Source of the DNA: Tetradesmus obliquus
Lineage: Eukaryota > Chlorophyta > Chlorophyceae > Sphaeropleales > Scenedesmaceae
Assembly: GCA_030272155.1 (NCBI GenBank)
Contig: CP126204.1
Location: 310,001 to 374,000 of the forward strand
Length of the DNA: 64,000 nt
Reading direction: 5' to 3'
Made by a program: the position numbers and the translations under genes. Below the pieces are notes generated by a model, which was given only the letters and a program-made list of their open reading frames with translations, made no database searches and had not been told where the DNA came from. Shown piece after piece: positions 2,136 through 63,908 of this stretch; the stretch's first letter is position 1, and every line of letters begins with the position of its first letter.

Positions 2136-3463
2136 ATGACCAAATCAGCCCTGACCCTGCTGCTGCTGGTAGCTTGTGCTGCAAGCGCCATGGCGTACCC
2201 AAGCTTCTGGCCGGGCAGGGCACCCAACTGCCAGGCCCTGCCCACAGCAGGCATTGCATGCCACAAGGCGCCTCAGGACGACAAGTGAGCAGACACTGCT
2301 GAGCAGCAGCACAAGGCACAACGTGTAGGCTGCTTGTTATGTCCGCTGCAGAGCGCCTGGCAGCAGCAGCCGCTTGCAGCAGTGTACGGTAGCGCAAATG
2401 TCACACAATACGACACTAAAGCTCGTGACGGGCAGCCACACCACTCTCATTGCCTCAGTCAGCTGGAACCGTTGCTGTAGCAGCTCACCACACAGGGCTG
2501 CTGCCAGCAGCAGCAGCAGCACACGCCTCACCTGTAGGCTCCTGCTGGCTTCGATGCGCCTCATGCAACCGCCTGCACCCCCACACCCTGTTAACCACAC
2601 TCCTGCAATGCGCCGCACCCCGCCGCCACTTGCAGGAAGAGCACCATCAGCCTCTTCGCTGCAGGTGCCGTCACTGCTGCACCCTCACACCGCTGAACCC
2701 CTTTCACCCCGCCGCACCCCGCCGCTTCTTGCAGGAAGAGCACCATCAGCCTCTTCGCTGCAGGTGCCGTCACTGCTGCACCCTCATACCGCTTGAACCC
2801 CTCCCGCTCCGCCGCACCACGCCGCTGCTTGCAGGAAGAGCACCATCAGCCTCTTCGCTGCAGGCGCGGTCACTGCCGCCTCCAAGCCCCTGGCAGCCAT
2901 CTGTGCAGGCAAGACCTACTCAGTGCAGGTCAAGTTCCCAGAGGCCCGCTTGGCCTACCTCACTGCAGGCTCTGTGGGTGCTGCCTCAGCCCGCATCGCC
3001 ACCAACAACGCCCTCAACACCAAGTGCACCAACACCATGGTGTTTGCCAAGCCAACGGGGTTCAGCGCTTCTACAAGCTTCAACAGCGTCGTGACAGCAC
3101 CTGCTGTAGCTGGGCCGTGGACGGTGGCGGTGGCCTCTGCTACCGGCGGCTGCGCACACTTCCAGGTGTGAGGGTTTTCTGAAAGAATACGGCATGACGA
3201 GAGGCTGTGGCGTAGCGCAGCAGCCACGAGCTGGCCTGTGCAGAGATGTAGTAATGATGGCTACCAAAGTTTGCATGTTATGTGTGCTTGTTGGGACTGG
3301 GCACGCTGTGCCCCACTGGCAGCGCGGCCTGCAACCGTAAACATGCAGGGCATGTTGCAAGTTATACTTTGAAAAAGCATGCACGTAGGTGCTGACACGC
3401 TCGCCTGCGCTTCCCTTGTGTTTGCAGATCACCAGGGCAACACTCACCGTCGCCAAGTGCTAA
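2136..3463 (+). CDS. Small secreted protein of unknown function (171 aa)
   Basis: Exons: join(2136..2284, 2835..3165, 3428..3463); phases close to 172 codons with a TAA stop. The protein starts MTKSALTLLLLVACAASAMA, a clear signal peptide with a likely cut after the AxA. A mature chain with several Cys follows (NCQALP, IACHK, AAICAGKTYSV, NTKCTNT, GGCAHFQ), rich in Ala, Val, Ser and Thr with alternating hydrophobic residues, which suggests a small beta-rich extracellular domain. I do not recognise the family. The true acceptor of exon 2 is the third of three near-identical copies; use of either earlier copy gives an early stop. A TGTAA motif, the usual green-algal poly(A) signal, lies at 3567-3571. 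Confidence 0.7.
2636..2834 (+). repeat. Two echoes of the exon 2 acceptor and 5' end (99-100 bp period)
   Basis: CTTGCAG followed by GAAGAGCACCATCAGCCTCT occurs at 2636, 2735 and 2835 with spacings of 99 and 100 bp. Only the third copy continues into the full exon. Splicing into the first or second copy would keep frame for about 20 codons (KSTISLFAAGAVTAAPS...) and then meet TGA. The copies are almost identical over about 55 bp, so they are recent or are being homogenised. Confidence 0.85.
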
Positions 3464-4700
3464 GGCCAAGGAGACATCAGCAAAGCCGCTACCAGCGGCA
3501 TTACACAGCCACCAGAAGAAGCCGCTGGCGACACAAAATAAGCTTGGCTGAGCCGCATGGGCTGCCTGTAACGCCTGTCATCATCTCTGGCAGGGCAATT
3601 TCTGTTCTGCAGCAACAGCTTCTATTAAAGGCGGCCTGCATGCCCTGGCTGCTTTCCTCTGGCAGCGGTGACCCCTTTGCTACGTTTCAAATCCACAAAA
3701 TGCGTGAAGTGTGATTCCATGGTTTCCTTACACCTTACACAGCCGATATTCCACCATGATGTGGGTCAGCTGCATCCTTGTACTGCTGCTGATATGTATA
3801 TGTTGAAAATGCGGTTGGGATTATGGCCAGCATCATCGTGTATAGCATTGATGTGCCAGCTGGCAGCTGCAGTTGTGGCTCAATGTCATTTGCACTTTGC
3901 ATGATGTCATGAGTGGTAATGCATAATAAAAAATGCCACCAAGACATGGCGGTTATACCTCCAGATGCACTGGGCTCAGGAGGTTGCATACCTCCTTGCC
4001 TGCTGGAAGCTTGTCATGATGGTTTGCAGTTGGCGTCATCATGTCCTGCGGGTGACGCATACACAACATCCTGTTTGTAACGTCCAAACTGTGCGTTTCA
4101 CTGCTTGTGACTCGAAGTTCCAGCTTACCAACGTTAAACAACGCTATGGTGTGTTTGGCTGCGTGCCTTGTGGCGATATGCTGGTGCACATAGGAGCAGA
4201 AGCAGAAGCAGGAGCTGCACATGCTAATCTGAGGTTCAGCAGCCATGGTGGCCTTTCGGGGGACCACTTCTTGCCATGTGAGTGCGCATTATGTTGCATG
4301 ATGCTTATGCTTGTAGTGAATGCAATTCGGCAACTTTCTTTATATGGTGCACACTAGTGGAGACTGTTATGACCAAACAACAGTGTGAGCCTGGTGTGAT
4401 GACCCAGAAAACACTGGCTTTGCACCGAACCCTTGACAGCCGCTGCAGAATCTGTTTGTACTTATTATCACAGTTATCTGGTGATAGCGGTGTGTCGTTG
4501 CTCTGAAGTGCTGGTCGCGGATGCAACCGTAGGACAATTGATGCTGTGTGCTTTGTGAATCGTTGTCACTGTTTTAAAAAGGAACTCATATATCAAACTT
4601 GTTCGTGCATACTGAGCCTGCGTCTCAGCGGGTTCGGCCGATCAAATGCAAACTGTCTAGCGAAAGCAGGCCCCGCTGGAGCTAGGGCTTGCATGCAGCG
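3464..4700. other. Intergenic stretch, 3' UTR and cyclase promoter
   Basis: It holds the putative TGTAA poly(A) signal at 3567-3571 of the preceding gene and the 5' flank of the receptor cyclase. No exon with recognisable similarity was found on either strand. Confidence 0.5.
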
Positions 4701-7378
4701 ATGGCGAGCAATGTTCGCCTTTTTCTGCTGCTACTTTCGATTTGCACCGTGGCCGGGGTGCAGACCGCTGAGCAGCGCCAGGCACCTGCAGCAGCACCAG
4801 ACAGCTGCGGCCTGAATGACCCCCGGCTGGTTTCAAACACAACATGCAACGGCAGTTGCAGGACAGCCATACACGGAGCTCTGGTGGACATTTACAACAA
4901 CCTCAAGGGGTTTAACTGGAGCTGGGGCAACTTGGAGGACCACGCGGAGCTCAGAACACCCGCAGCAGCAGTATGGAGGCCAGACAGCAGCGAGTGCATG
5001 TCCTGCACGCTGCAACGCGGCGAGGTCGCGCCTTCCTACTGCTGCTGGGAGGGTGCCGTGTGCTGTGGCGAGCACCACAACTACATTGGGGAGCTGGGGG
5101 AGGTGACCTGCCAGCCGTATTCAGTCGTGCTGCTGCAGCTGCGCAGCGGCAATGTTGCAGGAAACCTAGGCAGCATCATGCCGCAGCTGCAGCTGCTGCA
5201 TGCGCACGGCATGGCCTACCTTGACCTGAGCAGGAACTTTATTTCTGGCGCCATTCCTGAAGCCATCGGCAGCCTCAACAAGCTGCATGTGCTGATGCTG
5301 GGCTCAAACCGTGAGTGGCGATGGGGTTCAGGCAGCAGCGGTGTTGGTTAGTGGAGGGCTTGTGTGTATGGAGTGCACAGCTGCACTGCCACCCATTACT
5401 GATGTGCAGCTGCTTTAGTTGATCAGCAGTACACAAGGCAGACCACAGCAATGAAAAGTTGGAGCAGAGTGCAAGCTGCAAGCAGGCAGTGCAGCATGTC
5501 CGGCTGATGACCGCGTGCAGCTGAGTGGCGGTGGTCTTGCCACAGCGCATGTGTGTACACTGCAAGCTATACATACCTGCAGCAGACCAGCAGTGCCTGC
5601 TGCTTCAAAGCAGCGGCTCTGGTTTATACAGCGTTAACACATCCCACAGTATCCTTGCACCACACAGCTGTTCCGCCTGTATGCACTCCTGCAACATTCC
5701 CACCTGCACTGTCCCACTGGTCTGCGTCGACCTTGCTGCTGCTGCTGCTGCTGCTGCCTCTTGTGTCGCTTGTTTGTGTCCTGCAGGCATCTCCGGCACA
5801 GTTCCTGCAAGCTTCAGCCGCCTCAACAAACTGTCTCTGCTGGACCTGGAGTTCAACTTCCTGCACGGCAGCCTCAGCCCGCAGCAGCTGTGCCCTGCAG
5901 GAAACGTCCTGCAAGCAGTGTACCTGCGCGCCAACAACTTCACTGGCAGCCTGAATCTGACAGCGTGTAGGCGGCTGGAGGTGGCAGACATACAGGTGGG
6001 GGGAAGGCAGAGTGCTAGCATGTTTCTTGCTGGCAGACAGCCGCTTGTTCAGCAGCAGCAGCGGCGGCGGCGGCGGCCACTGCAGCAACAGCGTCAAGTA
6101 GCGAAACAGTCTGCTGCAGCATATAGCACCAGGTACGGTTCATCCTGCAGCAGCAGCGGCGGCAACATCAGCAGCAGCAGCAGCAGCAGCAGCAGTGGGT
6201 TTGAGCAAGCAGCAGCAGGCAGGCCACTGTTCTGTCTCTGTGCCTGCACCTCAGCCTGTTCCTGGTTGCAGTATGCAATGCTGTCTCCTAACAGCACTCC
6301 AGCAGCCATGGACGCAACAAAGCACTGCTTGCCTGCATGTCCTGCAGGAGAATGGCTTCACTGGTCCGCTGCCAATCGGCAGGACCAACCGACAGCTGGC
6401 TGTGCTGCGTGCCCGGCTGAATGATTTTAGCGGCACGATTCCTATTGATGTGTGGGAGCTGCCGCAGCTGATGACGTTTGACGTCACCAACAACAGGTGG
6501 GTCTGCAGCTGCAGTAGTTACAGCACCAGGCGCAGCGGTGGCCGCTGGCGACACTGCAGCAGCTGGCGCCACACCTGCTAGGTGCCCTATGACTGCATGG
6601 GTTGCTGCACATCTTCATCAGCAATGCTTGCACTGGCTGCGCGGCGATCAGGAGGCGGCAGTATGTGGGGCAGCAGTCAGTGGTGGTGGCGATCGCAAGC
6701 ATAGCCACTGAAGTCAGCAGTAGATAGCATGCTGCACAGCAACCTGTACCTGGGCACAATTGCTAACACATGTGCTGCTGCTGCTGCTCCTGCTGCTGCT
6801 GCTGCCTGCAGCCTCTCAGGCAGCCTGCCTCAGAATGCGTCCCCCAGCGTGTTCCTGACCAACCTGTACCTGGGCAGCAACAACCTGAGCGGGCAGGTGC
6901 CGCGCGGCATGACTGAGTCCAGCCAGCTGTCCAAGCTGGACCTCAGCGACAACTTCATGCTGACTGGGGTGCTGCCCGAGATGAAGTGGGTGACATGTGT
7001 TGCACAGTTGCTGTGTTATGGTTTGATGCTGAAATCTGTCCAGCCAGCTGTCCATGCTGGACCTCAGCGACAACTTCATGTTGACGGGGACGCTACCGGA
7101 GATGAAGTGGGTGTTTCCTTGCTTGCGTGTGCATGCACACTAGGGCATCCTTGCGCGCACATCAAGAAAGGCTGATGGGAACTGGGCATAAATGCTGGAG
7201 CTGCATCTTCTGCGCAGCACTTTACGCTGCCTTGGCGTGCAGCTGTCAGGCTCGTGCACTGCATGGACACCGATGGGGCTTGCGGCAGCTGCTTTGGCTG
7301 CTGCTGCTGCTGCTGCTACCCAACCATGGCCTGCACTCCAACTGCCAATTTGCCTCAAACCTGCTGCTCACATCATGC

Positions 7379-7409
<31 letters not shown>

Positions 7410-10400
7410 CGCTGCTTCAATTTGCGCAGGTGGATGCAGGGCCTGCAGCAGCTCTCAATCAGCAACACGCTCATCTCCGGCACCATTCCGGAGTCGCTGT
7501 CCCAGCTGCCCTACCTGGAATCCGTAGACATGCACAACACGCTCATGACCTGCTGTGGCAACTGGAGCGACGTGCAGTCGCGGACGCCAGCGCAGCTGCT
7601 GCCGGCGTTCCTCACGTTTGATGCGGATCTGAAGCGCTCGCCTTCCAATGAGATGCTGGGGCGTAACCCCCTGCTCAATGCTTACATGAACACGGGCCAG
7701 AACATGCTGTGAGTGTCCAGCTACTGCTGAGATGCTGAGTGGTGTCCAGTTGCTGAGGTTATGCACTGCCTGCTTTAAGTGATGGCATCATCATTTGTTG
7801 CTGTGATGCAGCACTACCTGCGCGTGGCTGCCCTTGCTGCTCAAGCGTAGATGAACTCATGCCAGAACATGCTGTGAGTGGTGTCATTCTCATCTGTTGC
7901 TTGAGGCTGTGCACTGCCTGGGTTTGGCTGTGCCCGCTGCGCTGCGGCTGCATGCATGGTGTGCCTGTGCACTGTCAGTCAATATGTCAATGCACATGAT
8001 CTGGTGCTGTTTTTCATGGCAGCCGTGATGTGCAGCTGCCCTTGCCAGCGGCGTACATGTGCTTGCCCTGCTGACCCTTACTGGTCCACCCCCCAACTCC
8101 AACCATTCACATGACCTACATCACCCCCTGCACTACTACCACTGCCGTTGCAGCTGTGGGTGGTGCAGCGTGACCTAGATCACCAAATGGCATCCACAAG
8201 CACTTGACATGCGTTCGCACCATGTTGCTACAGCTGACGTCTTCTCTGTCTGCGCAATTGTCCGCATGCTGCTTGCTGCGCAGCTGCGAGTCGGTGCGGC
8301 GCGACCCGGGGCACCAGACGGTGTCCACCAGCCTTGTGCTGCGGCCAGCCAACCTGAGCAGGCAGGCGTGGAGCGTGGACCCCGAGTACTTCTGGTTCCA
8401 GCGCTGCTCATGCATCAACGTGAGTGTTGGCATGCCCGGCTGTGCATCGCAAAACTGTGATTTGGTCTGGTGTGATGTGGTGTGGGGTGGTGTGGTGTGA
8501 TGGGGTGGGGTGGGGTATCGTAGGGCCGGAGCACTTCTAGTTCCAGCGCTGCGCGTGCATCAACGTGAGCGCTGAGCTGCAGGGGTGCTGCTTGGCTGTG
8601 CAGCTTTGTGTTGTGATAGGCAGAGGTGGATCACGTGGGGTATGGTGCGTTGTGGTGTGATGTGGAGACAGCGCTGCACCTGCATTGTCGTGCGTGCTGT
8701 GCGCTGCGGAACCCTGTGGTGTGTGGTTTTGGGTGCTGGCCGGGCCAGCTGCAGCAGAGGAATGACATGTCACGCCTGCCCCAACAACATGCTCTGCGAC
8801 TCTACCTGCGAGCTGTTGCTGCTGCTGGTGCCTGCAGGGGTACACCGCGCGCTATGAGAACAGCGCAGCAGCGGTGTGGTGCAACACCAGCTTGCACCCC
8901 CCTGGCAGCGATGCGGCGAAGAAGTGCATTGAGATGCAGGTGCTGACCTGCGTGAAGAAGCCGCCGCTGGCAAAGGAGCAGATTGCAGGTGTGGCATTTG
9001 GATTTTTTGGTGCATTCTCGTGCCTGGGATGCATTGTGCACATGCGGGTATGGCCCTTTCTATAGTGGCTCAAGGCCTGGAGTGTCGATGCATCAGTACA
9101 GGATCACCCGAGCTGCAACTCCCACGGCACACCCACTCAACATTGGCTTAGTATTCGTGTCATCCGCTGCTGTGCAGGCCTTGCGGTGGGGGGCACGGCG
9201 CTGCTGCTGCTGATGGTGATGCTCACGAGCCTGTCGCTCAACATGTGCATGGCGCGCACCGGCAAGATCAGGCGCCAGCTCAACTGGTGGCACAAGCACC
9301 TGGCGGGCATGCCGCGCAGCGGCAAGATGGCTATAGTCATCACAGACATCGAGGGGTACTCAGGTGTGTGCTGCGATTGTCTTGTGGCTTGAGAGCGTAG
9401 CAGCAGTGGTGGGTAGCATTGCCGCTGCTGCTGCGTGGTGTGAGCTGCCGTCATACTGTGCTGCTCAAGGTGCTGCCCAAAGGTGATGTTTGTGTGTATT
9501 CTGCCGCACATCACGCTGCTGCTTCCTTGCAGACCTGTTCAAGCGCTGCCCGGAGCTAATGTACCGCGCGCTGACGCTGCACAACAACGTCATCCGGCGC
9601 GCCAAGTACGCCAACTGCGGCTCCACCGTGCAGCAGGAGGGCGACTCCTACACGCTGGTCTTCCACGACGCCTTCGACGCGGTGGCCTTCTGCCTGCAGG
9701 TGCGCGGTTCAGCAGGTTAATCTAGGTTGTTTGGGTTGTGCTAGGCATGGCGGGGCCTTTCACAGCGCCCTCGGTGCGACGACCTTCTACCTGCAGGTGC
9801 ACATGTCAGTGCTGTTGCATATGGTTGTGTGGCTGCGGTGAGGGTTGTGTGCAGCAGGAGGCCGACTCCTGCACGCTGGTCTTCCACGACGAATTCGACG
9901 CGGTGGCCTTCTGCCTGCAGGTGAGGTTTGACCAGGTTTGACCTGCTGCCTGAGTTTGGTTAAGGTGGCATTATGCTTGCAGGAGGGCGACTGCTACACG
10001 CTCGTGTTCCACGACGCCTTCGATGCAGTGGCCTTCTGTCTGCAGGTGTGCGGGATCTTTGTTTGTTTGAACCTATGCATGGAGCTTTGCAGGAGTCAAT
10101 CGTGCCTTGCAGAACTGTGTTGTTCAGCAGACATAGACATGGTGGGGTGTGCAGTAATAATAGCCATGTAGGATGTCGCCAGGGCGGCAGGGTAACTGCA
10201 GTTGCAGCTTCAGTGACACCCAGTCCGCTGGTGCATGTCGTTTGCATTGCCAGCAAACAACTGAGTGCATTTGTCTGCTCATGAATTGCTTCTTGGCTTC
10301 CCAGCTGCAGGCGCACCTGGCTCGCATGAAGGTGCAGTGGCCGGAGGGGCTCAGGTGCTGTCATGTGCTGTCACACTGACACACCACTGCATGTTGTGTT

Positions 10401-11976
10401 TGAATCTGGTTGCAGGCGCAGCTGGCTCGCATGGAGGTGCAGTGGCCGGAGGGGCTCAGGTGCTGTCATGTGCTGTCACACTGACACACCACTGCATGTT
10501 GTGTTTGAATCTGGTTGCAGGCGCAGCTGGCTCGCATGGAGGTGCAGTGGCCGGAGGGGCTCAGGCGCTGTCATGTGCTGTCACACTGACACACCACTGC
10601 ATGTTGTGTTTGAATCTTGTTGTGCAACCTGCAGGCGCAGCTGGCGCTGATGGAGGTGCAGTGGCCGGAGGGGCTCATGGAGGCGGACAGCAGCAGCCAC
10701 ATGCAGCTGCGTGCAGCAAGCAAGGCCCGCCGGCCCAAGCGTGAGTAGCTCGCGATGCAGTGCATAACCATTTGAGCTGCGCATCCTGCAAGTGTGCTGT
10801 TGCGCATACGAGCTTTGCATGATGCATGTGCTGATCCAGGGATGGTAGCACATCTGCTCGTTTTGCCACTCTGTGATGCACAGTGGTTGAGGCTCACGGC
10901 GGTGCCGTGCGCTGTTGGTGAGTAGTGCAGCAGCGCTGCATTGCAGGGAGCCACATGTTTGCGCCATAGCGCTGACATTGCTGCTGCTGCTGCTGCTGCT
11001 GCAGTGCCTCAGCTGGACTCGCTGCTGACTGGCGGCACCAGCGGCTGGCTGCGCAAGTCGCGCCCCAACATCAAGGCCGCCAGTGAGTGGCCTGCTCTTG
11101 CCTCATGCACGCCACCTTGCTGTCGCATGGTGTACTCGCTCATTGTGTCAGATGCATGCTTCTTATGTGTCATGTTGTGCATCAGGCAGGCGGCCATTTG
11201 GTGTGTCTCAGCAGTCTCCTGCTAGACCTGCACGCCTTCTGGCTGCTGCGTGGTGCACATAACACCAGCGTCTTCAAATGCATATCATCGCAGCAGGCAT
11301 GTTGTGCAGCAGACAGTGTGTGTATGCAGCTGCTTCTTGATTATGCAGGAGAGCAGCTGCTCGACTTCACGCATAGACATAAAGCTTACCGCATCAGCGT
11401 GTGTGCTCTGGTTTCATGCTGCAGGCAGCTTCGGCATGCACGCACAATCCACTGACAGCTTGCAGGCAGCCGCAGCAGCAGGCGGCAACAATGCTGGTGC
11501 TGGCCCCTCCGTGCTCAGCGTGCGCCACAGCGGCCGCAGCCGCAGCCGCATGCTGGACTATTTCAGGGGTCACCAGGGCCTGGCGGGTGGTGCCGGCATG
11601 TTTAACGGCCTGCGCGTGCGCATGGGCGTGGTGACTGGCGTGGTGGAGGGGCCTGCGGAGCCCGGTGCTGCACTCGCAAATATCATGAACAGCAGCCTCT
11701 ACAAGCTGGCGCTAGGTGGGTTTGGTCAGACATCAGGTGGCTCTCTACCCCACGCTGCAGGATCATCATCTGTCTGTGAGAACTTTAACTGCCCCCTCTT
11801 TTAGTGTGCAAATCAGGCCTGTTACAGCGCTGCGTGCTTTGTGTGCATTGCTCTAAAGATCCGGCTGGCGACTGCTGCTGCTGCCGCAGACATATTAGAT
11901 GCGGGCAACGGCTGCCAGATCTCCACAGACGAGGCCATGTTTGCGCGCATCAAGGAAGTGCTGCAACCCACATGCT

Positions 11977-12040
<64 letters not shown>

Positions 12041-13216
12041 CACTGCCGCAGACGTCTCCGATGCGGGCAATGGCGGCCAGATCCTGATGGACGAGGCCAC
12101 CTGCCTGCGCAACAGCAACTTCTGAAACATCACACACTGCCTGCTGCCGCTGCTGCTGCTGCTGCTGCTGCCGCAGACGTGTCCGATGCCGGAAACGGCG
12201 GCCGGATCCTGATGAATGAGGCCACCTGCCTGCGCAACAGCGACATCTGAAACATCACACACTGCCTGCTGCTGCTGCCGCCGCCGCAGACGTATCAGAT
12301 GCCGGCAACGGGGGCCAGATCCTGATGGACGAGGCCACCTTTGCGCGCATCAAGGAGGAGCTGCACCCGCTGGGGGCTGTAGATGCCAACGGGCTCAACT
12401 ATGACAAGCTTGCGCAGCGCACCTCGCTCTGGCAGCTGCTGTGCCTGGGCACGCTGTGCAGCTCGCGGTGAGTTGTGCTGCGTGCTGTGCAGCGCTGGTT
12501 GTTGAATTTGCTGTAGTTCCCTGCAAGGGATGCTCTGTTTGCATGCAAAACTTGTGTGTACGCACAGACAACTGGTTCATGTGAACTCTGTCGCGCTGCA
12601 ACAATCAACAGCGCACGCGCACGCTTGCCGCCAAAACCTCACGTGACATGCTGGGCGGGGCAGTGGTGCAGTTGAAACACGACCCCCACTTCGTACTCAA
12701 CAGCCCTTTCACGCGTCACAACACATCCTCGCTTCCCTGTACATTGAATGATGTCCCTGCAGGCGCCACGACATGCTGGACGCTGACGAGGCAGTCGTGC
12801 TGGACATGGGCCAGTACACCCACGTGTGTATGCGCGGGCATCGGAGTTGATCACCTGAACCTTCCTGTACGTTGAACATTGTCCCTGCAGGCGCCACGAC
12901 ATGCTGGATGCTGACGAGGCGGTCGTACTGGACATGGGCCAGTACGAGGTGCCCGCGCCGCCACAAAAGGTGGCCAGCATGCGCAACGCCAACGCCTCGC
13001 TGCGCCAGTCGCTGAAGATCGCGTGGCCGCAGATGCTGACGCAGCCGCACGCCGCAGATCCTCCTGCAAGCCGCTGCTTGCAGGAAAGCGGCGGCGGCTT
13101 GCAGGAAAGCGGCGGCGGCTTGCAGGAAAGCGGCGGCTTGCAGGACGGCTACCTGCTGCAGCCCACCAGCTCGCTGCCAGGTGCCGTGCCGCTGGCATGC
13201 AGCAGCTACGGCTACG

Positions 13217-13248: not shown

Positions 13249-15480
13249 GGATCAGCCGGTGGCGCTGATGCCAGCGGCAATGCCACACTTGCTGCCAGGC
13301 AGCGGGTGCGGCTGGTGCAGATTCTTGCGCCGTCGCTGGTGGGCCGTGCTGCGGTGTGGGGCAACCAGCTGTCACTGAAGAGCAGCTGGGTGTGCTGCGA
13401 TGCGCCTTACTACGAGGCTCCAGGTGCGTGGTGCGGCCAGCAGAGCTGCATTGATGTTTGTGTCTTTTGCGGGCTACCTGTGAATACGTGTGACGCCCTT
13501 GGCGGTGTGTCCTGCCTCGTTGCGCGCGATTGTTTTGTCAGCATGGTTTTGTGCTGCTGTGTGGGCGCAGCGTGTCGGTGCTGAGTGCTGTGCATCGCTG
13601 CACAGCTGCTGCGTCCGAGCTGCGCCTAAGCAACGCATGTTTTTGAATACACCGCCTGCTTTGTTGTGTTGCATGTTGAGGTGTGACTAGCAGCAGGCGC
13701 CTGCGTCAACTTTTCCCTGCAGCCAACACTGTGTTTTGTGTGCTCCTTGTTTCCTATCGCTGCTGCAGGTGCTGTGGAGGCCCCACTGGGCAACGCAGTT
13801 GCAGGCCGCACCAACAGCCTGGGCACTGCCGCAGCCGCAGCGGGTGCTGCTGCGAGCTCGTTTCCGCAGCTGCAGCTGCAGCAGCAGCTGGATACATCAA
13901 CAGCAACCGGCAGCACTGGGCTGAGCCCAACTGCCTCCCTGAGCCTCAGTGCAGCAGACGCTGCTGTTGCTGCTGCCACTGACGCAGCTGGTGACGCACC
14001 CAAACACAAGTATGCTGTCGCTGCATTTGCGTCAGTGGACAGCGAGCAGCAAGCTATGCTCTGCACCTCGCCGCCAGCAGCAGCCAGCAGCTACTGGCAC
14101 CACAACGCGCCGCAGCAGCAGCTGCTCGGCCGGCAGCTGGCGGCCCCCATGCCACCTGTCACAATGGTGTTTTTAGTTGTGGAAGGTGCCAAGGTATTTG
14201 GCAAGGGGCGGCGGCCGCTGGTAAAGGAGGTGCATGCACAGCTTGCGGCACTGCTGGTGGAGGCACTCAAGCACACTCAAGGAGGCTACCTGTGCAGGAT
14301 GCAGGTGCGTTTGATTTCATAAATGCTTTACCAGCAGATGGTGTGCAGTTGCGCTGGATGCAAGTGTGCGCAGATGTTGTCTCGTCCTCCCGACGCGTAG
14401 GCAGTTTGGTTTGTCTGCAGAATTGGATTATTCTGTGAGTTAGTGTTGTTTGCGACGATGAGTCGGCCGCTGGTAAAGGAGGTGCATGCGCAGCTGGCGG
14501 CGCTGCTGGTGGAGGCACTCAAGCATGTGGCTGGCGGCTACCTGGGCAGAATGCAGGTGAGCTTGATCAATGCTTTGTCTGCAGGGGTCTGATATTCTAT
14601 GAGTTGGTTATTTGACGGTGGCCAGCTGCTGGTGGAGGCACTCAAGCATGTGGCTGGCGGCTACCTGTGCAGGATGCAGGTGGGTATGAACAACCGATAT
14701 TCAAGATGTTCTGTGGTTGACAGAGCGGTGCTATGAGTGGCTGCGGCTGCAGGGAGCTGCATTGCAGCAGTCACACTACCTTGGCACCCCCCCTAGTTCA
14801 CTAAGGGTACCCCCTAGTGGTGCTGGACTGCCCATGTCACTAAGCCCTGACCTTAGTGACAAGCCCCTTAGCAGGCCAGACCTTAGTGACACCCTTAGCT
14901 GTTGGTGCTGCCACACTGCTAAGCCCCTTAGCAGGGCAGGTCAGCACCACTGGAAAAGCCCCTGTAGCGTGTCTGTTACATTCGAGTTGCTGCACAACCA
15001 TCGCTGAGACGAGGCAGGCATCCCAGCACCCATTGCAGTGGCTGCTGTCAGCACCTCCTGCCTGCCTGCTGCTGCTGCCGCTGTCATGGTGTGCTTGCAT
15101 ATTGCTTCTATTCCCGCACCGCCAGCGTCAGGTGATCATGACCTTCCGTTTTTGGTCTTGATCAATATTGTCTTTCGCTTGTCTCGCTGGCGCGAAGGCA
15201 GATTGGCGTGTCTGCAGGGCTGAGTTGTCTTTGTATTGTATGTTATGACGCTGGCGGCGCTGCTGGTGGAGGCGCTGAAGCACGTGACTGGCGGCTACCT
15301 GTGCGGGATGCAGGTGCGCTCAAGTCATGAACGTGCTTGACCAGGAGATGGTGTACAATCGTTCACACCTGTGCCGGGTGTGATTTCCGTATGCGTGCTG
15401 ACGTCACTGCTTCTAAGGCGCTCATAAGCACGGCAGTGCAACTGCACAGCCCAGCTGGCTAGAGTGCCGACCATGTGTTG

Positions 15481-15555: not shown

Positions 15556-17494
15556 AGGAGGGCGACCTCAAGTTAATGGTGGCCTTCAGCAGTGCCAGGT
15601 CAGCGCTGGAGTGCTGACCCATTGCTGTGCTGCTGCTGCTGCTGCTGCCGCAGGAGGGTGACCTCAAGTACATGGTGGCCTTTGCCAGTGCCAGGTCAGC
15701 GCTGGAGTGGTGCCTGCTGGTGCAGGAGGCCGCGCTGTACCTGCACTGGCCTGACAAGAGGTGCGGCGATTGCAGTGGGGCCCGAGTGTGGCAAATGTGT
15801 TGTTGCTGTGATGGTGCAGGAGGCTGCGCTGTACCTGCACTGGCCCGACAAGAGGTGCGGAACTTGCAGTGGGTTGGAGTGTGGCAAGTTTCTTGATGTT
15901 GTGATGGTGCAGGAGGCGGCGCTGCACTGGCCAGACAAGAGGTGCGGTGGCAGCGGCGGCAGCAGCTTGGCGTAGAGCTGCATGCGCCATATGCACATGC
16001 AGCTTGTCATATAAGTGCATGCGCCATATGCACATGCAGCGCTGCTACAATACATGGTGACGCCCGCTTGGGATCGCTCACATGCATGCCAAGACTAGGA
16101 AGCGTGCATGCTTACATTCTTGCTGACAATGCTATGCTTCTGCTGCTGCTGCTGCCGGCGTGGCCTGCAGCTTTGCGCGCATCCCGCAGCTGCGCAGTGA
16201 GTACGACGCCGAGGGCCAGCTGGTGTTCAGGTGCGCTGCAGGCTTGGGTTGAGCCCTGTGTTGCACAAATGCAACTGCCCTGGACATCTTGCTGCTGAAG
16301 TGGGGCTGCATGCGTGTGTTCATCCCATTGGCAATGCAATATGTACCGTAGTTTGTCACAATCAGCACCGCCTTCCGCCGGCCTGCGCACATGCATCATC
16401 AAGCATTGCTGCCGCCGCTGCTGCTGCTGCTGCTGCTGTTGCGGCTGCTGCTGCTGCCAGGGGCCCGCGCCTCAAGATGGGCGTGTGTGAGGGCGTGCCC
16501 CGCACCATCATCCCAGACCACCTGGGCAGGTGAGGCAGCACAGTTGCACACTTCAAAAGCAACTGAGTAAGGGATCTGGCAGGTGTGCATGGTAAATTTG
16601 GACCTGCTTCACGTGCACCACAGTACGAACGCTCCGCAACCCAGTTGGCATGCTTGCTGCTGCTCTGGGTGCTGCTGGTACAGCATCGTAGCTCTCTGCC
16701 AATCCACATAGCAGGTATCACGTACCATCGGCTCTGCTTCACGCGTTCTCAACCCACTGACGTTTGCCGATCAACTTTCAAAACCCTGCAGGGCCGACTA
16801 CCATGGCAGCTCCATCAACCAGGCAGCGCGCTTCATGGACGCGGGCGCACACGGCGGCCAGATCGCCTGCGAGGCTGACCTGGCAGCAGCAGTGTTTGCG
16901 GAGTGGGCACGCAGCGGCAGCAGCAGCAGCAACGCCACGCCCGGCGGCAGCAGCGCAGCTGACGAGGAGGGCGCTTCAATGGATCCAGCCGTTGTGCGGA
17001 CGGCGTCTGCGCCTGTTGCAGCAGCAGGGGGCGGTGCTGCTGCTGCTGGGTCAGGCCGTGTAGAGGACTGCATGCTGCTGGATGGTGCTGGCGGCAGTGC
17101 TGAGCTGGACGGGGAGTGTGGCGATGCAGGCGTAGGCGGGCCGTCTGTGCTGCGCAGCAACACCAGCAGGTCGCTGGACAGTGGGCTAGCACAGCTGCGC
17201 AGCACTGGCAGCAGCGAGGCCGCACAGCAGCAGCAGCAGCAGCAGGGGGCGGCTGCTGGGGCTGCAGGGTGTGTTAGGTGCACCTGCAGTGCTAGCTGTC
17301 CTGCAGACAGTATGGGTGCTTCAGGCTGCAACTGTGGAGCAGTAGCAGCAGCAGCAGCAGCAGAGGAGTGCGGCAGAGATGAACATGCAGGCAGCATGGG
17401 ATCGCCTTTTGCCACATCAGCTGACGCAGCTGCTATTGCAGCCGGTGCTGCTGCTGGCATGCCGGCCGGTTCAGCTAATGCTGTGCCTGATTGC

Positions 17495-17526: not shown

Positions 17527-18838
17527 GCAGCCTGCCTTGAGCGGCGAGTGCAACACCACCAGCAGCAAGGAAAGTGGCACAGCAGCAGCAGCTGCAGCAG
17601 TAGGCGGCAGCGGCAGCGGCCTTGGAAGGCGCCTGTCCCGTCTCTTTGTCAAGAGCAGCTCCACACGCAGCAGGCTCGGCCATAGCAGCACCGACATCAA
17701 GCAGCAGGAGCTGCAGCTGGCAGCAGCAGCAGCAACTGACGAGCAGCACACTGCTGCTGCTGCTGCTGCTGCTGCTGGCAAGGTCGCCTTTGCTGGGCCT
17801 GGCCATCCATCAACAGCAGCAGCGCCGCCGCCGCCGTCGGCAGCTCCAAGGTTTGGGCTGTCCGAGGTTCCACGGGTGCCTGTGGCTGTGTCTGCGCACC
17901 ACCTCGGGTCGTTCAGGTTCAAGGGCAACCCCCAGCCGCTGCAGATGGTCAATGTGATGGCAGCTAGCCTTGCAGGCAGGGCCGCATTGTTCCCTGCAGA
18001 CCCGCCGAAGGGAAAAGGCAACCGCGTGGCAGCAGGCGACGGCCTGGCTGGATCTGCTATAGCTCAGCTGCCTACACTTGCACTACAGTACAGAGCGCGC
18101 GTGCCGCATCATGTGCTGGAGCTAGTCCCTGCTACTCCGCTGGCAGGTGGGGTGGGTGCGGCAGATCGGAAAAGCTTGCTGCAAGGGCAGCTGCGCACGG
18201 CCAGCTTGCCTGTCACTCGCAGCCGTACCATGATGGCAGGGCTGCGGTGGGGCGCTGGCTCCCCTGTAGAAGATGCAACGCAGCAGCAGCAGCAGCAGCA
18301 GCAGCAGCGCGTGGAGCATGATGTAGAGGGTGGGCTAGGGTTTGGCATAGGGCTGCTGCGGCTGCCCAGCAGCAGAGCTTCCTCCTCTGGCCGGTCCTTG
18401 AGTTTCCTCATGCAGCAGCGGCACACCCCTAGCATTCCTGAGGAGCCGGGGTGGGATGCAGCAGCAGCAGGCAAGGACGTAGGGGCTACAGCACCAGCAG
18501 GGTACGCAGACACATGCGGCGTTGATGTGCGCAGCAGCACCAGCAGCAACGGAAGTGGCGGCTGGGCCAGCAGCTTAGGGGGTCTGTTTGGCGCAGGCGG
18601 CAGCCACAGCAGCAAGGCGCGGCTGGCGCAATCCTTACGCAGCCAGAGTGCAATAGTCAGCCGCCGCAGCAGCGGCAGCGGCGGCGGCTATGAGAGCGCA
18701 GGCATCGGGCCATTTGGGCGCAGCAGCGGCAGCGCACCGCATTCACAGCGTCCCAGCGCTTCTAACGGCGCAGATGTGGTGATTCCTCTGGCTGTGCTAC
18801 GGGAGCAGCACTCAGCTGCGGCCCCTGATGCTGCCTGA
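4701..18838 (+). CDS. LRR receptor-type class III adenylate/guanylate cyclase (2021 aa, 19 exons)
   Basis: Exons: 4701..5310, 5787..5995, 6348..6496, 6812..6985, 7430..7708, 8284..8419, 8838..8988, 9178..9363, 9533..9699, 10635..10740, 11005..11082, 11425..11715, 12290..12467, 12891..13423, 13769..14304, 15654..15760, 16171..16230, 16461..16529, 16792..18838. Phases close exactly. Order of parts: signal peptide (1-26, MASNVRLFLLLLSICTVAG); Cys-rich cap and leucine-rich repeats (to about 470, e.g. YLDLSRNFISGAIPEAIG); juxtamembrane Cys region; membrane span 570-592 (GLAVGGTALLLLMVMLTSL); first cyclase domain with metal Asp motif VITDIEGYS (about 623-631) and EGDSYTLVF (667-675); second cyclase domain 1211 to about 1370 with FLVVEGAK in place of the TDIEG motif, EGDLKYMVAF, and DYHGSSINQAARF (Asp1342, Asn1349, Arg1353). 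A low-complexity Ala/Ser/Gln insert of about 330 residues separates this from the cyclase tail (HHLGSFRFKG, about 1710), followed by a disordered end. It should sense an extracellular ligand and make cAMP or cGMP; which nucleotide is not clear from the sequence. Confidence 0.8.
7039..7106 (+). repeat. Echo of the 3' end of cyclase exon 4 (LRR)
   Basis: This repeats the last 23 codons of exon 4 (QLSMLDLSDNF..LTGTLPEMK) including the donor context GATGAAGTGGG. The genuine exon end is at 6985. The echo has no acceptor in front of it, so it cannot form a full exon, but its donor could compete with the true one. If intron 4 upstream of it were retained, the frame would not be kept. Confidence 0.8.
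8527..8566 (+). repeat. Echo of the 3' end of cyclase exon 6
   Basis: TTCCAGCGCTGCGCGTGCAT CAACGTGAG repeats the end of exon 6 (TTCTGGTTCCAGCGCTGCTC ATGCATCAAC, donor at 8420). The copy carries an in-frame TAG in place of the Trp codon but keeps GTGAG. A weaker trace is at about 8667-8690. Confidence 0.75.
9848..10045 (+). repeat. Two full echoes of the metal-site part of cyclase exon 9
   Basis: Segments 9858-9920 and 9983-10045 are each 63 bp. Each is preceded by CAG and followed by GT, and encodes a version of the EGDSYTLVF...AVAFCLQ segment of exon 9: EADSCTLVFHDEFDAVAFCLQ split as EADSCTLVF and DEFDAVAFCLQ, and EGDCYTLVF with DAFDAVAFCLQ. Both are phase 0-0, so inclusion would add 21 residues without a frameshift. 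The genuine exon ends at 9699. They could be alternative cassette exons or relics of duplication; splice data would decide. Confidence 0.85.
10311..10634 (+). repeat. Triplicated 105-bp unit: echoes of cyclase exon 10
   Basis: Units start at 10311, 10416 and 10521 (exact 105-bp period), and the genuine exon 10 starts at 10635. Each unit has an acceptor CAG, 44 bp encoding a version of AQLARMEVQWPEGL, then CTCAGGTGC. The genuine exon has CTCATGGAG at that place, so a one-base change creates a GT in the echoes. Units 2 and 3 are nearly identical, including 61 bp of intron. Inclusion of one 44-bp copy would shift the frame. Confidence 0.9.
11890..12250 (+). repeat. Three echoes of cyclase exon 13 (DAGNGGQI segment)
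   Basis: Copies start at 11890, 12052 and 12177, each after a CTG-rich tract ending in CCGCAG; the genuine exon starts at 12290. Each encodes a variant of D(I/V)(L/S)DAGNG(G/C)QI..(D/N)EA. The second and third copies end in an in-frame TGA (12123-12125 and 12248-12250) and would act as poison exons. The first stays open into the CTG tract at about 11978. This is the clearest case of 5' exon parts with intact acceptors being multiplied. Confidence 0.85.
11975..12038 (+). repeat. (CTG)n tract in the cyclase intron, about 20 units
   Basis: A perfect CTG run lies between the first and second exon 13 echoes and precedes the acceptor of the second. Confidence 0.95.
12763..12830 (+). repeat. Echo of the 5' end of cyclase exon 14
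   Basis: CTGCAG followed by GCGCCACGACATGCTGGACG repeats the start of exon 14 (12891) for about 55 bp with silent or near-silent changes (RHDMLDADEAVVLDMGQY), then diverges. The upstream 30 bp of intron (CCTGTACATTGAATGATGTC) is repeated as well. Confidence 0.85.
14464..15313 (+). repeat. Three echoes of the 3' end of cyclase exon 15
   Basis: Segments 14464-14556, 14626-14679 and 15251-15313 repeat the end of exon 15 (genuine end 14304). They encode versions of LLVEALKH(V/T)..GGYL(C/G)(R/G)MQ and each is followed by GT (GTGAGC, GTGGGT, GTGCGC). They have donors but no clear acceptor. Confidence 0.85.
14813..14953. mobile_element. Small palindromic insertion, MITE-like candidate
   Basis: Lying between two exon 15 echoes, this about 140-bp stretch starts CTAGTGGTGCTGGACTGCCC and ends with the near reverse complement GGGCAGGTCAGCACCACTGG. 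Inside are repeated direct and inverted CTTAGTGACA / CACTAAG and GCCCCTTAGCAGG motifs, so a long hairpin can form. This fits a miniature inverted-repeat element, but no target-site duplication was established. Confidence 0.4.
15481..15557 (+). repeat. (CTG)n tract, about 25 units, ending in an acceptor
   Basis: A nearly perfect CTG run ends in CTGCAG, immediately before an exon 16 echo. It acts as the 3' end of an intron-like unit. Confidence 0.95.
15558..15653 (+). repeat. Echo of the 5' end of cyclase exon 16
   Basis: After a long CTG tract ending in CTGCAG, 15558-15615 repeats the start of exon 16 (genuine start 15654): EGDLKLMVAFSSARSALE then TGC TGA, an in-frame stop. A second short CTG tract at 15630-15653 leads into the genuine acceptor. 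Confidence 0.85.
15814..15947 (+). repeat. Two echoes of the 3' end of cyclase exon 16 (93-94 bp period)
   Basis: The end of exon 16 (GTGCAGGAGGCCGCGCTGTA..., ending in CCTGACAAGAG before GTGCGG) recurs at 15814 and 15907. Each copy keeps the AAGAGGTGCGG donor context. The period of about 93 bp includes 50 bp of intron. Confidence 0.85.
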
Positions 18839-18871: not shown

Positions 18872-18935
18872 AGGTGTGATCCCTCTGGCTGTGCTACGGG
18901 AGCAACACTCAGCTGCCAGTGCGGCCCCTGATGCT
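18872..18935 (+). repeat. Echo of the cyclase C-terminal codons after the stop
   Basis: ATCCCTCTGGCTGTGCTACG onward repeats 18780-18833 (IPLAVLREQHSAA...APDAA) just downstream of the TGA at 18836-18838, separated by a (CAG)n tract. It is in another frame relative to the main chain. Either the gene end was duplicated, or a frameshift moved the stop upstream. Confidence 0.7.
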
Positions 18936-19059
18936 GCTGATGCCCACGATGCAGCAGCAGCAGCAGCAGCAGGGCCGTTTGGCAGCAGCGCAGCAGACAA
19001 GGGCTGGCCTGGTGGTCAGCTGCGGGCTGATGTGGAAGGCCAGCAGGAGCTTGCTGCTG

Positions 19060-37442: not shown

Positions 37443-37649
37443 GTGACTCACCACGCCCACCACCACACCAGAGCAGTTGGTGTAACCAGCAGCCCACGCT
37501 CCTTTTGCATTAGCGCCAGCGTCAGCATCCATCATGCCCCATAGGCTGGCGTAGTAGGGGTCGTTTGTTGTCGCCTGGCTGGCGTTGAGCAGGAAGTTGG
37601 GCTCAGAGTACTCCACATATGAGTCTGCAAAACAGCAGCAGAGCATGTA

Positions 37650-56968: not shown

Positions 56969-56998
56969 AGACAGCAGGCCGCACCCAACCTGCAACCG

Positions 56999-57004: not shown

Positions 57005-57183
57005 GCTTCGCGAAGCACAGCAAGCTGCATCAAGTTCAATTCCAATCGCAACTAATGCATTGTAGTCGCAATTAACAGGAAGACAGAACATTCAGAACCA
57101 AACCGAACGTGTAGCAGTCCTCTACTACTGGTCTTCAACGCGTCGGCCACAGCCCTGACATATTGCAGCAAAAACCTTTCATT

Positions 57184-60163: not shown

Positions 60164-62264
60164 AGCACAGCGATGTGAAGCGCATATTGTAGTGGTTTGT
60201 GCACTACCCTTTGAGCTTCGATGCTGCAGCAGCCTGCCAAACAAGCTTGCTGCTGTGTTTCTGTCAGGGGCCATTTGTTTCATCCTGCGCTCTGCAGCCC
60301 TTTGCTGTATGTGCATCACGTTTGTCATGATCCTGCCCTTTCTTTGCATCTATTTCCATCCTGCAGCAATCCCTATGATTACTGCTGTAGGGTGGGCTCA
60401 ATCTTTTCGTGCGCACACTCCTGCCTCAAGGCACAAATAGTGCAGTTACAATGCTGAGTCAGCATCCTATGTTCATTTGATGTGAGATACCCTTTTCTAT
60501 TCCAGTGCTATTCTGCTTTTGTCTAGCAATACGCGGTTGCTCTTCAGACTAGGTTGCACATACACTGTCAAGGCTTGTATATGATGAAGAATCCACTTTT
60601 GCTGCTAGATGTAGCAACAGGCGGTAGTCATTGTCATTCCCTTTTGCAGCAGTGTCACCATTGTTGCTTCATGCTCCTCTTATGCATCCACTTGAGTGCT
60701 TGCCCCCTGATTATACTTGCAGCCAAACCGGCTGCCTATCTTTCACTGCATACGCAGCGTGCTCAAAAGTTCAAAGCCTCCAATGCGGTGTTTGGGATCC
60801 TATGTCATTCGGCTGGGATGCTTATCACACTATTTGCAAGTTCCACATCCTGCCATCATTGGTTCCAGGTTGTGTTGAAGCTGTCCGTGACAGTGCAGTG
60901 TATAGCGTGTACACGCTGCTTCCTTTGTGTGACTTTGCAGTACCCAGAGGTAACACTGTCAACGACACACCACAATGGCACTTGCCAGCAGCCTGATGAC
61001 TGTCCTTTCGCTCCAAGACTGCAGCTGTCACAGCTCTCACCTAACAGGCCTGGTACCATGCATTGAAACAGCTGTACCGCCTACCAGGCTCAAGGCTTGA
61101 GCTCACTCGCCTTGATATAACACTGTCATCAAGAAGTTACATGACGGTTGACTGGCTAAGTCCACCACTGGATGCGTCGGTGCAGCGGTGGCCTGTAGAA
61201 AGAAATGCAGGAACTGCTTCTTGGCCTAGCTCCTGTACTGTTAACTCCTTCAAGCACGCAGCCGAAGAACACACGGGCAGCTCCAGTATACTGCTTACTA
61301 GTAAGCAAAAAGCCTGAGGCGGATCGAGGCAGCACACAACGTGACCTTGGGCACTTTTAAAGCACTATCCATCACAGGCAGGACCAACAGAACAAGCACA
61401 CACTGTGGCACAGAGTGCCTGATAACTGTCCCGCTTCAAACCGTAACAACAATCAGCAGCATCTGCAGCGGCCTGCGGGGCTATGATCATTGCAGCAAGA
61501 CCATTGGCAGGGCTAGCAAGCTAGCTGCGCATGCGGCACAGCCAGCACCTCCGCTGCCTGTGCCGTGACTTGCTGCAGACACAGGTGGGCAAGCCTGAAT
61601 GTGCAGCGGGCCTGCACCTGGACTGCTGCAGCTGTAGCGGATGTGATGCTGCAACGGCCACAAGGACGCACACGTGCATGAATAGCAAGCATGGATGCCA
61701 GCCACACCATCTGCGATTTGTTTATAACCATAAAAGAAAAACGTTACCCTGCAACAGCCACCAGCACTCGCAGCATTGAAGCGCTTCAAGCAGGCCCATA
61801 ACAACACACTCACAGCCAGGCGAAAGCACTGCAGCTGTTTTTTTCTACCCTAGATGTACAACATCAACATGCTGCGGGCTTGCATACAGAACAGCTGCCG
61901 GACTCGCAGAGCTGCCAAGCATGCTGCTGCAGCAGCCCAGCCCCTCGGCTTGACACAGCACGCTGCATGCGCGCCACGCTGCACAAGGCGCTGCAGCCGC
62001 AGCGCAAACAATCTCACTGTTACCACATGCTCACAGCCGTGCTGCCAGCTTTTGCGCTTTGCAGCCAGGATGTCCAGCGCCATGCGCAACACATCCTCTG
62101 CAGGCACGCAGCCATAGACTTGCGGAGCTTCACACCATCATACCTTCCCCGTCCTTGCGGCCCAATCACAGCACACTGGCTGCATGATGTGCCGCCGCAT
62201 TGCAGCCGCCGTGTTGCAGCCGCCGTGTTGCAGCCCCTTCAGCGGAGCACAAGCACACACTGCC
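60164..62264. other. Convergent intergenic stretch, CRP5 / RPAC1
   Basis: Both genes end here. It includes an echo of the RPAC1 3' end at 62039-62113 and otherwise no recognisable feature. Confidence 0.5.
62039..62113 (-). repeat. Echo of the 3' half of the last RPAC1 exon
   Basis: On the minus strand the segment GCCTGCAGAGGATGTGTTGC GCATGGCGCTGGACATCCTG repeats the end of the last exon (PAEDLFRMALDILAAK) as PAEDVLRMALDILAAK, followed by a broken end. The stop region AGCACGGCTGTGAG is also repeated. Confidence 0.85.
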
Positions 62265-63235
62265 TCACAGCCGCGCTGCCAGCTTGTCACACTTTGCAGC
62301 CAGGATGTCCAGCGCCATGCGGAACAAGTCCTCTGCAGGCACGCAGCCGGTGCTCTCTATAGTGAAGATGAAGTGGTCCTTGCGCTTGCGCAACTGGATG
62401 GCCTCGGCCCACTTGTCTTGCTCCAGCAGCCGCCGCACCTGCAAGTTTGAAAGAACACAGCATCATACCAGGAACTTAAGTAACACATGGTGAAGATGAA
62501 GTGGTCCTTGCGCTTGCGCAGCTGGATGGTTTCAGCCCACTTTTCCTGCTCCAGCAGCCGCCGCACCTGCATTTTTTTTGAAAGAACACAGCATTGAAAG
62601 CAGTACAGTTTGTGTGAAGCTGAAAGGTTGCGGGTATAAGGCGCTTGCGCAGCTGGTTGGGCTCAGCTAACCGCTGCTGCTGCAAGGGCCTGACTCTTGC
62701 GCAAGGAGAGCTACACATGCACAACTGCAGACGACTGCGCGCCTATACACAGCTTGAACCACAGGCACATACATACACACACCCATACCCAGCACGCACA
62801 CATGTACACAAGCACAAAAGCAGGCGCGTAAACAAAAACAGCAATGTGACAAGCCTCAGGGCTTTCCCAAAAGGGTTTTGATCACTGCAGGTTTCCCTGC
62901 TACAAATCTACTATCTAGTTAGCAAGCATCATAGGCCGGAGTCACACAGCCACACAAACAGGCAAACATGGCACCACACCAACACCCTGCAACTGGCAAC
63001 ACACACGACAAATCGCTGAGCACCAACATGCATCAACTGCACCATGCTACAGCAGCAAACAGCAACAAAAAACGTCTGTCTGCATCTTCACCAACCTCTG
63101 CCACATACACACACAGCTGAGCAGCACCATGCCACTGCCATAGCTGCCAAGCGCACGCACGGCAGCAGCAACAACAGCAGCTGTAAACACGCAGCAGCAT
63201 ATCTGTAACAATATCTACACAGCAGCCGCACATGC

Positions 63236-63268
<33 letters not shown>

Positions 63269-63908
63269 CTCACCCGCTCGAGTTTGTCCTCATGCTGCCG
63301 CGCCTCCCCCACCACCAGCTGCCCATCCTGCACACTGAACAGGCCAGGCACTGCTGCTGCCAGCTCCTGCGCATCTGCACCTGCCACTGGCTGCAGCAGC
63401 ACCACCTCAGGATGCAGCCTGTACCATGCTGTGGCCACTGGAGACCACTTGGCATGCTCGCGGCCCACGCCTTTCACTGCATGTGCTTCCAGCTCTATGC
63501 ACTGCAAGGGTGACAGCAGCAGAAGCAGCAGCAGCAAGGAGAAGTCAGCTGCAGCAGCAGCAGCAGCCGAGGCCTCCAGCGGTGCACACAGCTGACAGTG
63601 CCGCACTTGCACATGTCGGACCTCGGCGGAGCAGTTCGTGCTTGTGCCTGCCGCGCAGCAGAGCAACATGTTGCAGCAACATGTTGCAGCAATGTCATAG
63701 CAGGGAAAGCTGTGCAGGTGCTGCAGCCATGCAAGCCAGCGCAGCCAACACTACATTTAGGAAACAACTGCTACATCCTGATGTGTCAGATATGAAATCA
63801 GCAGGTGTGGCAAGACCCACCTGGCCAGGACGCAGCTTTGCCAGCAGAATGTTTTGCTCCACGTCCCGAGGTGGCGCTGCAAACATGCCCTCCTGGCTGC
63901 GGCCAAAC
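62265..63908 (-). CDS. RPAC1: DNA-directed RNA polymerases I and III subunit RPAC1 (AC40), 3' part
   Basis: Visible exons: complement(join(62265..62438, 63274..63501, 63821..63908)); the 5' exons lie beyond base 64000. The translation reads NILLAKLRPGQ, then IELEAHAVKGVGREHAKWSP with VATAWYRLHPEV, then LRKRKDHFIFTIESTG and PAEDLFRMALDILAAK. These are hallmark stretches of the AC40/RPC40 family (alpha-like subunit that pairs with AC19 in Pol I and Pol III). Phases between the three exons close and the TGA is at 62265-62267. Intron 3' ends are CTG tracts (63911-63953 read on the minus strand). It is a housekeeping gene and the best orthology anchor in the window. The exon at 62265-62438 has partial echoes on both sides. 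Confidence 0.93.
62490..62571 (-). repeat. Echo of the 5' half of the last RPAC1 exon
   Basis: On the minus strand CTGCAG-like context (AAATGCAG) and then GTGCGGCGGCTGCTGGAGCA repeat the start of the last exon (62438), encoding VRRLLEQEKWAETIQLRKRK with DHFIFTM, after which the frame diverges. A third short trace is at about 62643-62690. Confidence 0.88.

Follow-up and report, generated by a model that had tools for sequence, protein, structure and literature searches.

The window analysed here is a 64-kb stretch of the genome of the green alga Tetradesmus obliquus, corresponding to positions 310001–374000 of contig C14 (CP126204.1) in an assembly of 104.66 Mb and 17 contigs. Seven of its genes, namely the end of an upstream cyclase gene, a gene for a 171-amino-acid (171-aa) protein, a receptor cyclase, the cysteine-rich paralogues CRP1 and CRP3, a subtilase and RPAC1, contain echoes, a term used here for a spare, decaying copy of a coding-exon end, often with its splice site, in the adjoining non-coding DNA. 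The guanine-plus-cytosine content of the window is approximately 56%; the sections of PMC5966456 consulted give 57% for T. obliquus, together with a mean intron length of 462 bp, compared with 230–302 bp in the four other algae listed there. Self-alignment of the window after masking of microsatellites, with pairs retained at E<1e-3, a length of at least 30 bp and copies within 1.5 kb of each other, yields 48 direct-repeat pairs that cover 8.3% of the bases. The same detector finds no inverted pairs in the window and no pairs in three dinucleotide shuffles of it, which serve as the null, and it finds 2 pairs in a 100-kb E. coli control.

Window echoes were chosen by hand from these self-hits and then realigned, which gives 31 echoes with identities of 73–98%: 2 at the upstream cyclase end, 2 in the 171-aa gene, 19 in the receptor cyclase, 1 in CRP1, 2 in the subtilase, 2 in CRP3 and 3 in RPAC1. 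A first-pass annotation of this DNA had counted more than 20 echoes in the same seven genes, and realignment bears this out. The phenomenon is not tied to splice junctions, and three genes echo coding 3′ ends. Fifteen echoes copy a 5′ exon end, and all of these lie upstream of the presumed genuine copy; the 12 copies of 3′ exon ends and the 4 copies of coding 3′ ends at the stop all lie downstream of it.

The receptor cyclase (forward strand) includes one of the clearest cases. In its intron 9700–10634, three echoes of the upstream exon end are followed by three of the downstream exon start. The genuine cyclase exon 3′ end with its donor (9628–9718, exon end 9699) is repeated as donor-type echoes at 9754–9809 (73% identity), 9849–9938 (90%) and 9979–10053 (91%, with 5 synonymous changes to 1 non-synonymous), and the genuine acceptor with its exon 5′ end (10610–10677) is preceded by acceptor-type echoes at 10286–10353, 10400–10458 and 10505–10563 (81% each, the latter two with a unit of 105), with a contiguous array at 10306–10677. 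Up to four graded copies are present at one exon, where the genuine 5′ end (12290–12368) follows acceptor-type echoes at 11890–11968 (81%), 12052–12114 (84%) and 12177–12239 (81%). Further acceptor-type echoes lie at 12736–12817 (91%), before the genuine acceptor and exon 5′ end at 12864–12945 (exon start 12891), and at 15564–15616 (89%), before the genuine exon 5′ end at 15660–15712. Donor-type echoes follow an exon 3′ end in the leucine-rich part (6917–6992; echo 7038–7113, 91%) and the genuine exon 3′ ends with donors at 8374–8442 (exon end 8419; echo 8519–8587, 77%), 14197–14347 (exon end 14304; echoes 14449–14567, 82%, 14626–14689, 84%, and 15250–15357, 80%, at an offset of 1009) and 15715–15766 (echoes 15809–15860, 94%, unit 94, and 15902–15947, 83%). 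The genuine coding 3′ end just short of the stop (18780–18834) is echoed in the 3′ flank at 18877–18937 (87%). Downstream of this gene, positions 19002–19485 contain dense GGCAGGCTG-type repeats with periods of 46 and 61 bp.

Coding 3′ ends are copied into the 3′ flank in two other genes. In the upstream cyclase (forward strand), the genuine end with its stop (240–325) is echoed at 519–603 (93%), and a second, partial echo lies at 863–904 (81%). RPAC1 (reverse strand), another of the clearest cases, shows two echoes of the start of its last exon (genuine 62359–62439; acceptor-type echoes 62487–62567, 91%, and the more diverged 62641–62684, 73%) and one of its stop-codon end (genuine 62264–62348; echo 62030–62113, 91%), so that a housekeeping gene is affected, as had been claimed. 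In the 171-aa gene (forward strand), the genuine acceptor and exon 5′ end (2809–2879, exon start 2835) is preceded by acceptor-type echoes at 2611–2680 (90%) and 2710–2779 (92%, offset 99). The subtilase (reverse strand) has a donor-type echo at 36558–36600 (98%, its donor GT now AT) of the genuine exon 3′ end and donor at 36684–36726, and an acceptor-type echo at 37839–37896 (95%) of the presumed genuine acceptor and exon 5′ end at 37591–37648.

The remaining echoes belong to CRP1–5, five cysteine-rich paralogues in tandem at 23287–60163, among which echo clusters are found in CRP1 and CRP3. CRP1 (reverse strand) has an acceptor-type echo at 25249–25303 (76%) of the exon 5′ end at 25123–25177. 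CRP3 (forward strand) has an acceptor-type echo at 41641–41700 (97%) of the genuine acceptor and exon 5′ end at 41862–41921, and a donor-type echo at 43720–43772 (85%) of the genuine exon 3′ end and donor at 43491–43543. The earlier statement that most genes in the window are affected stands for the seven named genes but does not extend to CRP2, CRP4 and CRP5, which show no exon-end cluster at the detector threshold used; this distribution suggests a recent, copy-specific gain. The CRP1 echo contains the SKK residues of its own exon, and CRP2, CRP4 and CRP5 are without SKK.

The assignment of the genuine copy is backed by homology in several genes. Read via its outermost copies, RPAC1 aligns with RPAC1 chains of known structure (best 7a6h_C, E 1.2e-31, residues 13–158 of 162), and the subtilase path that skips the echoes is a Peptidase_S8 domain (E 4.6e-46). 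For the cyclase, the predicted path without echoes scores 25.4 bits and that with two echo exons 20.9 bits, against a Pfam cut-off of 21.9, which supports the echo-skipping path weakly. In the 171-aa gene, CRP1 and CRP3, the copy that runs on into the longer exon was taken as genuine. Outside the window, in the EFTUD2 gene of sampled locus L019, the start of the P-loop exon is present three times, and the protein with the two inner copies skipped matches 8xi2_C (labelled Elongation factor Tu, chloroplastic) and U5-116K/SNU114 chains across the join. A 2.45-kb stretch of EFTUD2 bearing echoes aligns at full length to a single place in the genome, any other match being at most 95 bp long, and a diverged second gene copy was accordingly rejected as the source of the echoes; an allelic origin may still apply.

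The occurrence of the pattern elsewhere was examined with the same settings at 20 preset 10-kb loci, starting at position 1,000,001 on each contig and at 3,000,001 on C1–C3, and then at four hold-out loci (L022–L025). Direct pairs are present in 17 of the 20 preset loci, with 73 merged clusters in 200 kb, and no inverted pairs and no pairs in shuffles are found there. Two of the four hold-out loci also contain direct pairs, namely L023, which consists largely of a predicted coding repeat, and L025, a predicted-intron array with a unit of 98. Local direct repeats therefore occur in 19 of 24 loci, and inverted pairs are absent from the window and all 24 loci, so the copies are in direct orientation only. 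The pattern is genome-wide but uneven, and the suggestion of the first-pass annotation that it reflects a genome-wide mutational habit and not a local one is upheld. Some loci carry arrays of other kinds. L017 (1–3956) is a mostly predicted-coding array of roughly 14 units of ~274 bp, with a short intron predicted within several units; L005 (1–1146) holds, at the border of the stretch, a tandem array of 191-bp units that are ~91% identical; and L023 (7337–9814) consists of nested, mostly predicted-coding repeats in which 20 of 34 pair offsets are divisible by three.

Gene models were obtained with a self-trained gene finder, which gives 53 genes and 226 exons with a median intron of 324 bp. 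It called several echoes exons, which affects the echo counts based on its models; the 45 of 109 clusters that span a predicted junction are an inflated figure for this reason. The coding satellite L017 was removed from the substitution, polarising and unit-size counts, L017 and L023 from the pair-level location test, and the hold-out loci from the junction, edge-query, spacer, substitution, indel, polarising, flank and unit-size counts. The substitution count also omits pairs in which both copies or neither copy lie in an exon having at least 25 bp outside repeats.

The relation of the copies to exon ends was measured with queries of 35–60 bp at exon and gene edges, matched within 1 kb at a score of at least 25. 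Matches are found for 24/146 donor ends, 15/149 acceptor ends, 9/35 predicted stop ends and 2/56 exon middles, and for 6/136 first-intron and 12/116 last-intron stretches; the reverse-complement control gives 0 for all classes except 2 last-intron stretches. The score of 25 was chosen because at a looser score of 20 the control gives 4, 3 and 2 matches for donor, acceptor and stop ends (observed 29, 21 and 11). Echoing of predicted stop ends is no less frequent than that of exon ends; at least one of these stops (window 12125) was mis-called within an echo. Because stop-codon ends behave likewise, splicing is not the cause, and splice-specific copying was rejected. In a rotation test, 45 of 106 pairs are exon-end pairs (28.8 ± 4.4 expected), 11 exon-only (16.3), 32 intron-only (28.3) and 18 intergenic (32.6). 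The excess shrinks once introns alone are the comparison (exon-end share 0.58, 0.50 ± 0.06 expected), and targeting of junctions is not supported. These results are read as duplication that strikes genes generally, with the exon parts visible for longer because one partner is conserved.

The duplicated unit was taken as the smallest offset per cluster. Of 107 clusters, 73 have a unit of 80–160 bp and 6 a unit shorter than 80 bp, with a second hump at 220–300, about twice the main one. Median units are 119–127 bp across exon, intron, mixed and intergenic pairs, and because they are alike in all four classes, the unit scale belongs to the mutation and not to splicing. Units are multiples of three in 10/12 exon-internal, 5/23 intronic and 16/57 mixed cases; the predominance in exons indicates that the same process hits exons and that selection filters its products. 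A 44-bp minisatellite of 2.8 copies at window 32683–32804 falls outside the 80–160 bp size class.

Where changes can be polarised, echoes appear to decay freely. In nine clusters with at least two echoes, echo-specific changes number 18/26/26 at codon positions 1/2/3 and are without codon bias, and genuine-specific changes number 5/3/9. Of 19 indels in the exon part, 17 break the frame. Among 31 echo donors, 25 are GT, 2 are GC and 4 are lost (6.4 losses expected under neutrality); among 15 echo acceptors, 14 keep AG and 1 is lost (2.9 expected). Retention is thus about the neutral prediction, and these counts agree with the earlier observation that 5′-end copies keep their acceptors and that 3′-end copies keep their donors or show one-base losses. 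Seven of 9 stop-end echoes have a stop triplet in the corresponding position. The echo splice score equals or exceeds the genuine score in 13/31 donors and 7/15 acceptors. Predicted use of 41 intact echo sites gives 30 stops, 9 frameshifts and 2 in-frame insertions, which agrees with the view of the echoes as decoy splice sites left by a duplication habit; the range of 20–60 bp previously given for the distance to the stop is only roughly right, as the stops lie 1–162 nt beyond the edge of the retained stretch. The echo is on the non-coding side in 56 of 56 pairs, which is partly true by construction, since pairs were chosen with one copy in a genuine exon. Several exon 3′ ends (window 9699–9700 and others) read CTGCAG/GTG, the stroke marking the exon end, which fits both the acceptor and the donor consensus; judged by this motif, donor-type echoes could act as recursive splice sites.

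Short tandem duplication in gene bodies, in which copies that leave the coding sequence intact survive and inner copies decay as echoes, is probably the explanation. Short tandem duplications, with units of ~80–160 bp, would be present in the genome at a high standing density and be frequent in gene bodies. A unit crossing a coding edge (acceptor, donor or stop codon) would produce two copies of that edge, and the product would persist only if the outermost copy still gave an intact coding sequence. The inner copy, left in the intron or 3′ flank, would decay there as an echo, its splice site or stop lingering as a passive decoy, and repeated rounds from both ends would yield longer introns. 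The local, direct-only duplication, the unit sizes, the frame filter in exons, the lack of codon bias among echo-specific changes in the multi-copy sets and the shared flanks in about half of the echoes, as described below, are direct observations. From these we infer that splicing uses the outer sites and that the tandem duplications are of a kind made by break or nick repair, not by CTG slippage.

The flanks bear on this explanation in both directions. In 25 of 55 anchored gapped alignments, the similarity between the non-coding flanks of echo and genuine copy lies beyond the 99th percentile for mismatched pairs, and therefore many units included intron or untranslated region. Simulated neutral decay leaves flank homology detectable in at least 96% of echoes at up to 6% divergence, even with frequent indels. 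Copying that stops exactly at splice sites, a candidate that arose from ungapped alignments, was weakened by the anchored gapped alignment and partly revived by this simulation.

Several results weigh against the proposed explanation. At an exon divergence below 8%, flank homology (above the 95th percentile) is found in 13 of 24 echoes only, and 11 of 24 are without it. Across 63 genuine–echo blocks, changes number 89/87/217 at codon positions 1/2/3, with 206 synonymous and 185 non-synonymous; this synonymous share (206/391) exceeds the random-change value of 0.246, the range estimated by us for mixed constrained and neutral change being ~0.36–0.5. The third-position share is 0.86, 0.68, 0.55 and 0.45 by rising divergence, and blocks differ in it beyond binomial expectation (p=0.03). 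Junction coverage, taken over exons with at least 30 bp outside repeats, is not above chance (32/314; null 41.7 ± 6.8 in gene space and 38.0 ± 6.9 in whole loci), and the hold-out loci, not inspected by hand, provide no clear new exon-end echo. Additionally, errors of the gene finder enter the counts: in the pair 12052/12177, for example, an echo was treated as genuine and its stop as a gene end.

In the echoes without flank homology, the third-position share is 0.59, compared with 0.50 in the rest. A post hoc hand tally of the 17 such echoes below 13% divergence places 55 of 74 changes at third positions and scores 52 as synonymous and 21 as non-synonymous; the changes are purely third-position at L014 6992 and L016 5781/6016 (6/6) and at window 43531 (4/4). 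This subset may reflect exchange between alleles, a coding role that constrains some echoes, rapid turnover of introns or an assembly in which haplotypes are mixed. That some echoes were exon-limited from birth or are kept under coding constraint is doubtful, though the least so of the readings that depart from simple duplication and decay.

The purely third-position blocks, the 55/74 tally and the splice scores that match or exceed the genuine ones (13/31 donors, 7/15 acceptors) speak for some echoes being functional, as alternative or poison exons under selection. However, echo-specific changes are unbiased in multi-copy sets, 17/19 indels break the frame, splice sites are lost at an approximately neutral rate, 39/41 uses would disrupt the protein, stop-codon ends are echoed too, and the addition of two echo exons takes the cyclase domain below the cut-off; we regard functional echoes as unlikely. 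Exon-limited blocks with synonymous differences and single-base indels would also fit a diverged second allele, placed in an assembly chimera of two haplotypes so that the exon end of one stands beside that of the other. A chimera of this kind is hard to reconcile with four graded copies at one exon (12290–12368 and its three echoes), with contiguous arrays such as 10306–10677, and with unit sizes that recur within exons under a frame filter while about half of the flanks are shared, which makes it somewhat less probable still.

Duplication driven by CTG/CAG tracts, through slippage or template switching, was proposed in the first-pass annotation, and such tracts are abundant and lie within some units (L019 3633–3899). 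Clusters nevertheless fall within 50 bp of a tract of at least five units less often than expected (27/107, 44.0 ± 4.8 expected), although masking may hide CTG-rich units; slippage was rejected on this count and is given very little probability. The idea that tandem duplications or introner-like elements create introns, with the echoes as scars, is held to be just as improbable. Published intron gain, in the part of PMC4974935 consulted, involves duplication across an exon edge, and the echo at L016 6585 ends in a site that, in our reading, could serve as acceptor and donor. Most echoes, on the other hand, lie within longer introns or 3′ flanks, and stop ends have no intron. A search of 56 spacers against 264 kb gives, outside the own locus, 13 weak matches (E 2.7e-4 to 0.01) from 6 spacers. 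Two spacers searched genome-wide, one of them 41701–41833 between the CRP3 copies, have no match outside their own array or place. A mobile element or introner as spacer was rejected, as no repeated family appears in either search.

Related phenomena are known. In the parts of PMC8355091 consulted, small duplications are described as the most frequent class among human short (<100 bp) insertions, and small tandem duplications arise from staggered-break fill-in; like the echoes, these are short direct copies of unique eukaryotic sequence without a mobile element, whereas here the units cluster at 80–160 bp at a high standing density and the mechanism is proposed by inference only. In Chlamydomonas and Volvox, tandem-repeat density is highest in introns and greater near intron–exon junctions (PMC3887541), which is the point of resemblance to the present repeats; that study searched units of 1–50 bp and, in the sections consulted, describes no exon-derived copies, whereas the units found here exceed that length and include exon ends. 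Tandem exon duplication with alternative splicing likewise places exon copies with splice sites side by side, but here the copies comprise exon ends only, most of them frame-shifted or containing stops, and the polarised echo changes look neutral. Intron creation by tandem duplication reportedly requires one event, in which a duplication across an intron–exon boundary copies the splice signals and gives a new intron. Boundary-crossing duplication copies splice signals here as well, but the copies stay as decaying echoes in existing introns or after stop codons. No description of exon-end echoes at such density was found in the literature by title and abstract start, a search that many journals fall outside.

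The pattern, real and genome-wide, is thus probably best explained by a strong tendency to tandem duplication combined with selection for intact coding sequence, with one subset unexplained. If that subset is indeed exon-limited or constrained, it would imply copying between alleles with introns too diverged to be aligned or, alternatively and by extrapolation, thousands of echo exons in use genome-wide. Gene annotation is affected, as the self-trained gene finder mistook several echoes for exons. With so narrow a range of unit sizes, the mutational process can be measured, and the echoes suggest how introns may grow. In many introns, the real splice site is accompanied at a distance of ~100 bp by one or several near-copies of it; the outermost site is presumably the one used, and the genome thereby offers a natural mutant library for splice-site choice.

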